Origin: a virus
DNA: 33,211 nucleotides
IMG/VR virus record: IMGVR_UViG_3300035184_000577
Location: 1 to 33,211 of that record
Direction: 5' to 3' (one strand)
This document shows positions 11,074 to 13,150 of the stretch, one piece after another. The notes under the pieces are model-generated. The model ran no database searches. It saw only the letters and a list, made by a program, of their open reading frames with translations, and had not been told where the DNA came from. Made by a program: the position numbers and the translations under genes. Position 1 is the stretch's first letter. Each line of letters starts with the position of its first letter.

Positions 11074-11457
11074 ATGGTTTTAGATAATTTAATAAATAGG
11101 GTTAACAAACATTTTGATGTTGATATTACACAAAATTCAAGAAGGCGAGAAATAGTAATGGCGCGCGCTGCATTTTATTGGCTTGCAAGAAAAAAAACAA
11201 GACACACAACAACACGAATTGGTTCAATTGTTAACCGCGACCATAGTTCGGTAATATATTCAATGAATAATTTCGAAAATTGGATTAATTGCGATTTACA
11301 TTTTAAAAATGAATTCGAAAAGTTACGTAAAATAGTATTTAATGAATTAAGTGTTGAAGATTTAATGAAAAAAAAGGTATTAGTTAAGTATAAATTCCTT
11401 AAAATTGCAAAGAATCTTTTACTTGTTGAAGTTGACAAATTAAAAAAAGAGTTATAA
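11074..11457 (+). CDS. Stand-alone DnaA domain IV-like DNA-binding protein
   Basis: 127 residues. Residues about 23-66 match DnaA domain IV: RRREIVMARAAFYWLARK gives the long helix, TTTRIGSIVNRDHSSVIYSM contains the signature loop (RDHSSV, compare RDHTTV) that reads DnaA boxes. There is no AAA+ ATPase part, so it cannot act as DnaA itself. The C-terminal part (about 85-127) is Lys/Leu-rich helical. It may mark the phage origin, compete with host DnaA, or regulate transcription (inference). It lies between exonuclease and VRR-NUC genes, upstream of the replication initiator. Confidence 0.75.
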   Translation: MVLDNLINRVNKHFDVDITQNSRRREIVMARAAFYWLARKKTRHTTTRIGSIVNRDHSSVIYSMNNFENWINCDLHFKNEFEKLRKIVFNELSVEDLMKKKVLVKYKFLKIAKNLLLVEVDKLKKEL

Positions 11458-11856: not shown

Positions 11857-12102
11857 ATGAAATACAACGATGTTTATTTTGATGACACAAACCAAAAAAT
11901 TAGATGGACACAATCAACGCCCGAAAATCTTCCAATTACATACGACTATGTAGGTAAGACAACAAGGGTTGAATTTGATTTGTTAATAGAATTACTTTGG
12001 CAGAGATACGAAGATTCAATTATTGACTTAAAAGATTTAAAAAAAATCTTCAATGATTTACGTGTTTTTTGTGATTCAATAAAAAATAACTATAATTTAT
12101 AG
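11857..12102 (+). CDS. Hypothetical protein
   Basis: 81 residues, acidic, with a short beta N-terminus (DVYFDDTNQKIRWTQ) and a C-terminal helix (DLKDLKKIFNDLRVFCDSIK). It lies 12 bases after the VRR-NUC gene and is last before the leader RNA of the initiator gene, so it probably shares the upstream transcript. No family recognised. Confidence 0.6.
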   Translation: MKYNDVYFDDTNQKIRWTQSTPENLPITYDYVGKTTRVEFDLLIELLWQRYEDSIIDLKDLKKIFNDLRVFCDSIKNNYNL

Positions 12103-12112
12103 TTAAAATATT

Positions 12113-12120
12113 TATATTTG
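12113..12120 (+). promoter_or_regulatory. -7 promoter box TATATTTG before leader RNA
   Basis: A good Bacteroidota -7 box whose expected start point (a few bases downstream) coincides with the first arm of the hairpin pair at 12122. The -33 region (around 12090) has no clear TTTG. Confidence 0.55.
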
Positions 12121-12121
12121 C

Positions 12122-12212
12122 ATTGTTATGTCGTGGTAACAATATAAAAAATTAATAGATACCCTATTGATGATGCGACCACGACCGCTGATTTGATAGG
12201 GTAATTCTTTTT
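12122..12212 (+). ncRNA. Structured leader RNA or small RNA with two kissing hairpins
   Basis: Hairpin 1 has arms ATTGTTA (12122-12128) and TAACAAT (12137-12143), 7 bp, loop TGTCGTGG. Hairpin 2 has outer arms TACCCTAT (12160-12167) and ATAGGGTA (12196-12203), extended by T-G, G-T and A-T pairs, then a symmetric TGAT/TGAT internal loop (12171-12174, 12189-12192) that could form tandem G-A pairs. An inner GCG/CGC stem (12175-12177, 12186-12188) closes the loop ACCACGAC (12178-12185). The two loops are complementary over 7 bases (GTCGTGG/CCACGAC). A U-rich tract follows (12205-12212). The RNA sits between a -7 box and the initiator ATG at 12218. Two tiny frames lie inside (12128: MSW; 12170: MMRPRPLI). 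The structure is read by hand; I recognise no known RNA family. Confidence 0.7.
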
Positions 12213-12217
12213 AAAAT

Positions 12218-13150
12218 ATGGAAATAAATAAAATTTACAAACCGAAAAAATTTGATTTTTTTACAGTAGTTCCAAATAATATTTTCAGGCACAAAGATAT
12301 TTCAGCAAGTGCAACCGGATTATATTGTTGGCTTTTTTCACACGAAGCAAAAACAGAAATGACAGTTCAATTTATTTGCGGCCATTTTAAAGACGGAAAA
12401 GACGCCATTAATAAAAGAATAAAAGAACTAATCGATGAAGGTTTTTTGGTACGTAAAGAGATGCGAAATGGCGGTAAATTTGCCGGATATAACTATTATT
12501 TGAATGACAAACCCAACAAGGCAACCAAAAACCACCGCAACCGGAAAAACCGCGACGGTAAAACCGCGACGGTAAAACCGGGCCCGGTTAATCCGCAACA
12601 AAGTAATACTATAAACACTAATGTAATAACTAATAAAAGAAATACTAATGTACGAAGTGCCACAAAATCAAAAACGCCTTTGTACAATGAAATAACATTA
12701 AAGGCATTTCCGCATTTTGTAGAATTATTTCCTATTCAGTACAAACCAAAAGGCGAAACTCAAAAAAACAAATGGTTGGATTGTTTAGACAAACTTCAAA
12801 GAATTGATAAATACAGTTTGCACGATGTTTATGAAGTTACAAAAACACTTCGAAATGATGAATTTTGGCAAACTAATTTTTTAAGTATTTTAAAATTTAG
12901 AAATTTAGACAAAAACGGAATTAAATACATTGACCGTTTTATGTTAAACCAAAAGGCAAAATCAAAACCGGTTGGTTATTCAAAAGTAAAGGGAATAATT
13001 GAATATTTTATTTACAATAGTGCTGCGGACGGAAACAAAGAATTGGGAGCAAAAACAAAAGGCGGAAACTTATTCGAATTTCATATTAAGCAATTAATGC
13101 ACACAAACGAATTTGATGAATTAAAAGAATATGTAATTATAAATAAATAA
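12218..13150 (+). CDS. Replication initiator / replisome organiser with winged helix
   Basis: 310 residues. The N-terminal part (about 12-95) fits a winged-helix initiator domain: FFTVVPNNIFRHKDISASAT, then GLYCWLFSH, MTVQFICGHFKDGKDAINKR (the helix-turn-helix) and LIDEGFLVRKEMRNGGKFAG (wing). A basic, low-complexity linker (about 100-150) is encoded by GC-richer iteron-like repeats at 12546-12589. The C-terminal half (about 160-250) has KWLDCLDKLQRID and FWQTNFLSILKFRNLDKNGI, resembling the helicase-loading end of phage replisome organisers. It lies upstream of the primase-helicase, behind the kissing-hairpin leader RNA. Initiation at its own gene is inferred by analogy with lambda O. Confidence 0.75.
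   Translation: MEINKIYKPKKFDFFTVVPNNIFRHKDISASATGLYCWLFSHEAKTEMTVQFICGHFKDGKDAINKRIKELIDEGFLVRKEMRNGGKFAGYNYYLNDKPNKATKNHRNRKNRDGKTATVKPGPVNPQQSNTINTNVITNKRNTNVRSATKSKTPLYNEITLKAFPHFVELFPIQYKPKGETQKNKWLDCLDKLQRIDKYSLHDVYEVTKTLRNDEFWQTNFLSILKFRNLDKNGIKYIDRFMLNQKAKSKPVGYSKVKGIIEYFIYNSAADGNKELGAKTKGGNLFEFHIKQLMHTNEFDELKEYVIINK
12546..12589 (+). repeat. Iteron-like direct repeats inside initiator gene (candidate origin)
   Basis: Two perfect 14-base units AAAACCGCGACGGT (12546-12559, 12560-12573) and a related third AAAACCGGGCCCGGTT (12574-12589), with a decayed unit just upstream (about 12527-12544). Each has a CCG...CGG inverted core. The block is much richer in GC than its surroundings and encodes the linker of the initiator protein. 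Initiator genes that contain their own iterons are known from lambdoid and lactococcal phages. Confidence 0.65.

Follow-up and report, generated by a model that had tools for sequence, protein, structure and literature searches.

The window analysed here is the whole of IMG/VR virus record IMGVR_UViG_3300035184_000577, a stretch of 33,211 bases whose genes include those for a tape measure protein, an exonuclease, a terminase and a primase-helicase. On its + strand, an 81-aa gene (11857-12102; the A1 family, used as a synteny anchor) precedes a replication initiator gene (12218-13150) with an N-terminal HTH and DnaD/O-like character, recognized by PHROGs matches to replication initiation proteins and DnaD-like helicase loaders and by Pfam HTH_36. 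The gap between them (12103-12217), which ends at the initiator ATG at 12218, holds a compact leader on the same strand, in the order TATATTTG box, hairpin 1 (H1), A/U linker, hairpin 2 (H2), U-rich run and initiator ATG. The box (12113-12120) conforms to TAnnTTTG, a promoter motif of Bacteroidota, and is a -7 element lying 1 base upstream of H1, where the 5′ end of the transcript is expected. H1 (12122-12143) consists of arms ATTGTTA (12122-12128) and TAACAAT (12137-12143) around the 8-nt loop TGTCGTGG (12129-12136), and is followed by an A/U-rich linker (12144-12159) whose length varies among the leaders compared. H2 (12160-12203), with outer arms TACCCTAT (12160-12167) and ATAGGGTA (12196-12203), comprises a lower stem UACCCUAUUGA/UUGAUAGGGUA, a symmetric internal loop of UGAU (12171-12174) facing UGAU (12189-12192) that is capable of tandem G-A pairs, an apical stem GCG (12175-12177)/CGC (12186-12188) and the 8-nt kissing loop ACCACGAC (12178-12185). 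The U-rich run UUCUUUUU (12205-12212) forms a terminator-like tail.

Within the two hairpin loops lie the strands GUCGUGG (12130-12136) and CCACGAC (12179-12185), which are complementary over 7 nt, or 8 when the H1 3′ arm contributes its first base; neither the kissing 7-mer nor its complement occurs a second time in the window. A sequence-only reading had described the kissing hairpins, the -7 box, the TGAT/TGAT loop and the U-rich run, all of which are in the sequence where it had placed them, and had proposed folding the region. By RNAfold, 12100-12230 reaches -25.9 kcal/mol (z = -2.57; 2 of 200 shuffles as good), with the kissing helix left uncounted. That reading was based on one phage; the feature proves to be a widespread class.

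A search of IMG/VR with the initiator returned 58 loci (given L numbers below), to which the upstream gene and a second initiator type added more. In the covariation alignment, whose 27 distinct sequences are phylogenetically related and not independent, 98.6% of cells are paired across 21 pairs, 10 of which change on both sides. The covariation score is 0.204 versus 0.080 ± 0.008 when shuffled, with 0 of 500 shuffles as good, and shifting the partner strand by 1-3 columns drops pairing to 31-55%. Because alignment members were picked by a regular expression requiring loop pairing, the 100% pairing of helix 2 is inflated. Compensatory changes, which the sequence-only reading had suggested seeking in other phages, were found in H1 (4 of 4 alignment pairs changed on both sides; 96.8% of cells paired), in the lower stem of H2 (CCCUGU/ACAGGG in L122; CUCUAC/GUAGGG in L065 and L081) and in the 7-bp loop-loop helix, whose middle three pairs covary (CG/UA/AU; GC/AU; CG/AU/UA/UG); the lack of covariation that it had named as grounds for giving up the structure is not what the relatives display. 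The kissing pair of the window is joined in its close family by GUCGCGG/CCGCGAC, GUUGCGG/CCGCAAC and GUCGAGG/CCUCGAC, and by GUAACGG/CCGUUAC in L096 and GUCAAGG/CCUUGAC in L122. In a set gathered by protein only, 26 of 28 unique long leaders contain an exact complementary GC-containing 7-mer, as opposed to 4.6% when shuffled; of the other two, L142 pairs using a G-U, leaving L197 alone without a complementary 7-mer. On these comparisons we regard the two-hairpin kissing structure as near certain.

The kissing helix of L004 has a U-G wobble, and wobble pairs also occur in the lower stem and at columns 50-51. Since these pair on the + strand only, the structure is that of an RNA transcribed with the initiator. 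Together with the compensatory loop-loop changes, the strand-specific wobbles speak against a function at the DNA level, in which a repressor would bind H1 as its operator and the remainder would form an origin structure: the H1 arms do make a perfect inverted repeat directly after the -7 box, but the probable origin iterons lie inside the initiator gene and do not track the loops, and this already disfavoured idea is highly improbable. Two further candidates were rejected. A kink-turn or hammerhead (UGAUGA...CUGA) is at odds with the pairing of columns 50-52 with 75-77 in 26-27 of 27 sequences, which makes the internal loop symmetric. A small protein encoded through H2 (PIDDATTTADLIG in the window) fails in that the frame is not conserved and the stem changes are compensatory, not synonymous. 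By eye, L013 and L020 keep possible frames open across the element, but in L022, L023 and the window these meet a stop or are shifted, and the lower-stem changes are non-synonymous yet compensatory.

The iterons in question are three 14-bp direct repeats, CGGWAAAACCGSGM, at 12542-12583 (+ strand), inside the initiator gene and outside the RNA. The initiator occurs with two unrelated N-terminal halves on one C-terminal half, and iteron-like repeats of two unrelated kinds (AAAACCGNNNCGGT and CCTATTRAAGAAAARTTYAA) switch with the N-terminal domain (window, L122, L175). The leaders of L159 (type A) and L175 (type B) are nearly identical despite their different N-terminal halves and iterons, a comparison on which we also rejected a link between loop and iterons (CCGCGAC recurs in the window iterons). 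More widely, the replication proteins behind the RNA belong to HTH_36, DnaD-like and DUF6291 families. In these arrangements the RNA is a module behind which the type of replication protein changes freely. Sister phages without the RNA show 18 distinct short gaps of 8-32 nt, with a TAnnTTTG-like box in 12 of 18. In L151, L160, L162, L201, L231 and other such loci, the gap measures 14-24 nt and the box often nearly touches the initiator ATG, so the initiator message there may be leaderless.

Searching known phages and plasmids with the DNA itself (blastn) gave chance matches only, and remote members therefore needed protein anchors and a covariance model. The model picked up a diverged copy in L059 (E 7e-6) and, marginally, another in Cellulophaga phage phi18:3 (E 1 in a large search; 0.026 on the two loci alone), both of which, on inspection, share the architecture and have 8-bp kissing of unrelated sequence, GAGUCUCA/UGAGACUC and CUUCUGAC/GUCAGAAG. 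The ORF beside the phi18:3 copy, a 69-aa protein of the A4 family, served as a search anchor and led to Olleya phage Harreka_1, Flavobacterium phages tooticki6-1, filifjonk9-1 and morran9-1, Tenacibaculum phage JQ, and Cellulophaga phages phi19:1 and phi10:1. A purpose-written descriptor, which requires an exact 7-mer and a U-tract, finds the element in the phages reached by this route; that of filifjonk9-1 was read from sequence, its leader being identical to that of tooticki6-1. Run on six phage sequences (whole or to 50 kb), the descriptor located a replication-leader copy in 6 of 6, with a strict promoter box in all except Tenacibaculum JQ (5 of 6), and returned 1 promoter-bearing match in 18 shuffled genomes; phi18:1 had no promoter-bearing match. 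Along with the compensatory changes in relatives, the six leaders bear out the earlier judgement that so many pairings exceed chance. Among IMG/VR loci gathered by A4 protein only, the element lies within ~420 nt upstream in 51 of 65, where mononucleotide shuffles lead to an expectation of 0.2. A 6-nt rule (shuffle rate 0) recovered 7 of the other 14, and most of the remainder have complementary stretches by eye, a reading that is no test. The phages bearing the element infect marine and freshwater Flavobacteria. A scan of GTDB host genomes with a pattern specific to the close family gave 15 matches, none in Bacteroidota and none read as the element; one of them, L127, has a stretch complementary to its loop lying upstream, though in a different setting.

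Across 78 curated elements, the layout is shared — promoter box, H1 within a few bases, A-rich linker, H2 and U-tract — and the distance from H1 start to H2 end is 72-106 nt (median 86.5). H2 recurrently has a lower stem of ~10 bp, an internal loop, a 3-5-bp apical stem and a loop of ~8-13 nt. Tandem G-A pairing, which the sequence-only reading had thought possible, gains from the relatives: GA is present on each strand of the first internal loop in 44 of the 78 elements, and that loop is 4x4 in 36, with examples such as UGAU/UGAU, UGAA/CGAU and GGAU/UGAA. Looking for an invariant core as a mark of a ligand riboswitch, we found none common to the groups beyond this tandem G-A loop, and a loose linker motif, RAARNATT, is present in 33 of 78. 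At least 47 distinct kissing 7-mers are represented; they are GC-rich (57% versus 32% in the loci) and pair with a median of -9 kcal/mol. H2 has a median of -16 kcal/mol, and its apical hairpin is weak when taken alone (median -1.25, half at -1 or above). Rfam, including its Bacteroidota motifs, likewise holds small structured RNAs of Bacteroidota and their phages, but none of its families matches the element, in keeping with the earlier failure to recognize a known family: there was no gathering-level match for the window or five other element-bearing loci, nothing credible at E <= 10 for the window, and in 16 further loci a sole match, DUF805b in L310, that is not the element. A description of the element was not found in the open-access library of papers searched, and we consider it a new RNA family that works like attenuators in a new form.

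Two features bracket the structure. Upstream, strict TAnnTTTG lies closely before 67 of 95 raw descriptor elements, some of which are chance matches, whereas between H2 and the next ORF it occurs in 1 of 82 raw elements. Downstream, 27 of 27 relatives in the A3 set, gathered without a U-tract criterion, have 7-9 U among the 10 nt after GGG; U-tract statistics derived from the descriptor are circular, since it demands one. The window's own run (UAAUUCUUUU) is among the least regular of the family. In L202, L059, phi18:3 and the A4 group, the U-tract stays beside H2 while the ATG is displaced, and it therefore belongs to hairpin 2. A consensus terminator scan made no call on the window element, owing to its loop limit of 3-8 nt and to the interruption of the H2 stem. 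A GC-containing stem is thus followed immediately by a U-tract and is placed between promoter and gene; with replication genes behind it and hardly any box between, this is the layout of an attenuator. Only 14 nt separate H2 from the ATG in the window, so H2 has to be traversed by any message that carries the initiator's 5′ UTR.

Taking these observations together, we favour, with a probability of roughly 0.6, a cis-acting transcription attenuator in which kissing organizes an intrinsic terminator, through which the replication operon is gated. Both stems, the loop-loop helix, the promoter box and the U-tract are shown computationally, as are the order in which they stand and their link to replication genes; from these we infer that transcription ends at H2, that kissing favours termination instead of blocking it, and that the extent of read-through is under control. 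Transcription would start from the TAnnTTTG promoter, at H1 or a few bases off. H1 would fold first, and the apical loop of the emerging H2 would then pair with the H1 loop over 7-9 bp, stabilizing the weak apical hairpin and pre-organizing H2. The lower stem of H2 would close against the U-tract to form an intrinsic terminator lying 14 nt upstream of the initiator's ATG, or ~40-60 nt before the first ORF in other phage groups, such that the replication genes would be expressed only from polymerases that read through. A terminator this near the ATG could also act at translation. Inspection revealed no alternative conserved (antiterminator) pairing, and no read-through factor was identified; candidates for the regulator are a protein that recognizes either the tandem G-A loop or the kissing helix, and titration by further copies of the RNA.

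Plasmid leaders are among the closest precedents. Attenuation in pIP501 involves loop-loop contacts. In that plasmid, RNAIII induces attenuation in the repR leader (PMC4981023), and both it and pT181 likewise have an intrinsic terminator in the leader of a replication initiator gene; they differ in using an antisense RNA in trans, whereas the kissing partner here is in cis, on the same strand. Antisense-type boxes near H2 occur in 16 of 47 elements versus a 15% background, but some derive from AAAATTATG start contexts, so the boxes do not establish a conserved antisense gene. The sequence-only reading had offered three functions, of which the attenuator fits best, favoured by a U-tract that adjoins hairpin 2 even where the start codon is displaced. 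Its analogy to repZ of IncI-type plasmids is weak. The IncI/IncB repZ leader also pairs a loop at a distance within a replication gene leader, but no conserved reading frame or leader peptide runs through our element, the loop's partner is a second hairpin loop, and the tail is terminator-like.

The third function, a free small RNA, persists as a rival. The element would then be a trans-acting phage RNA of ~85-105 nt with a target elsewhere, and its site before replication genes would be incidental. It does have its own promoter, 5′ hairpin and 3′ terminator, and terminated attenuator transcripts would look identical to such an RNA. Second copies before other genes also fit: one precedes an HNH endonuclease in tooticki6-1 (L314:11600-11678) and one gp059 in phi18:3 (L318:23588-23684), with a further second copy in an IMG/VR contig (L298:890-967). 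Yet the element stands directly before replication genes in every group, even where the replication proteins are unrelated, and its loops change with a partner inside the same RNA, so that it is an internal partner that is conserved. Each loop 7-mer appears a single time in the window, and in two-copy genomes the loop sequence of the second copy differs from that of the replication-leader copy. We judge the small RNA rather unlikely. Since copies with different loops are not expected to cross-pair, two-copy genomes fit a cis role or a private role in trans. In the latter, kissing between leaders of the same phage would sense genome copy number and exclude rivals, the fast-changing loop serving as a private lock and key in a widespread, hitherto undescribed class of attenuators usable with any replication protein. 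This extension recalls plasmid incompatibility loops, although both partners here are in one RNA, and we hold it to be unlikely and speculative.

Two further rivals were considered. The put RNA of phage HK022 has two hairpins, binds RNA polymerase and is not known to involve loop-loop kissing. It is made directly after a phage promoter, upstream of early genes, and suppresses termination (PMC9378689). Our element, also a two-hairpin RNA immediately after a phage promoter and at the head of a replication operon, might similarly stay on the polymerase and make it resist downstream pausing and termination. Here, however, the loops kiss and H2 runs into a U-tract, which makes it terminator-like, the reverse of what an antiterminator needs at this point, where put is two hairpins without a terminator; a put-like role is quite improbable. 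A translational operator, in which the kissing structure would control ribosome access or a phage protein would bind it and repress its own synthesis, draws on the spacing in the window group, where H2 ends 9-16 nt before the ATG, and on initiation in Bacteroidota, which is described as proceeding without a Shine-Dalgarno sequence and as sensitive to structure in the mRNA (PMC6847099). By contrast, the element keeps its form and U-tract at 27-60 nt or more from the ATG in the A4 group, phi18:3 and L059, and a swap of the initiator's N-terminal half and iterons leaves the RNA unchanged (L159 versus L175). Such an operator is about equally doubtful.

For the structure, the computational support is close to the most that sequence comparison can offer. 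The element is found in many phages of a bacterial class that matters ecologically, at the control point of phage DNA replication. If it acts as an attenuator, the known RNA switches would gain a kissing-loop terminator, and its at least 47 kissing sequences would give a natural library for RNA engineering. The proposal is testable now, given that cultured phages carry the element (Cellulophaga phi18:3, phi19:1 and phi10:1; Olleya Harreka_1; Flavobacterium tooticki6-1 and morran9-1; Tenacibaculum JQ).

Several neighbouring features deserve mention. The A4 family (L288:2309-2515 and relatives), which has no Pfam match, is encoded between RNA and replication gene in many phages of Flavobacteria, and its 69-aa protein is a candidate regulator. 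Just before the A4 ORF is a second conserved element, AGTT...GGTaATCTTaAAACC (L291:2960-2990, L288:2270-2308 and ~30 similar spacers), perhaps a small H-type pseudoknot; RNAalifold gave no consensus structure for the hairpin/pseudoknot at this site. The DUF805b RNA in Flavobacterium phage morran9-1 (52 bits; L310:1505-1539) lies upstream of gp040. Finally, these phages repeatedly encode small proteins carrying a DnaA C-terminal (DnaA-box binding) HTH: one at 11074-11457 in the window, and phi18:3 gp012, tooticki gp026 and Harreka_24.
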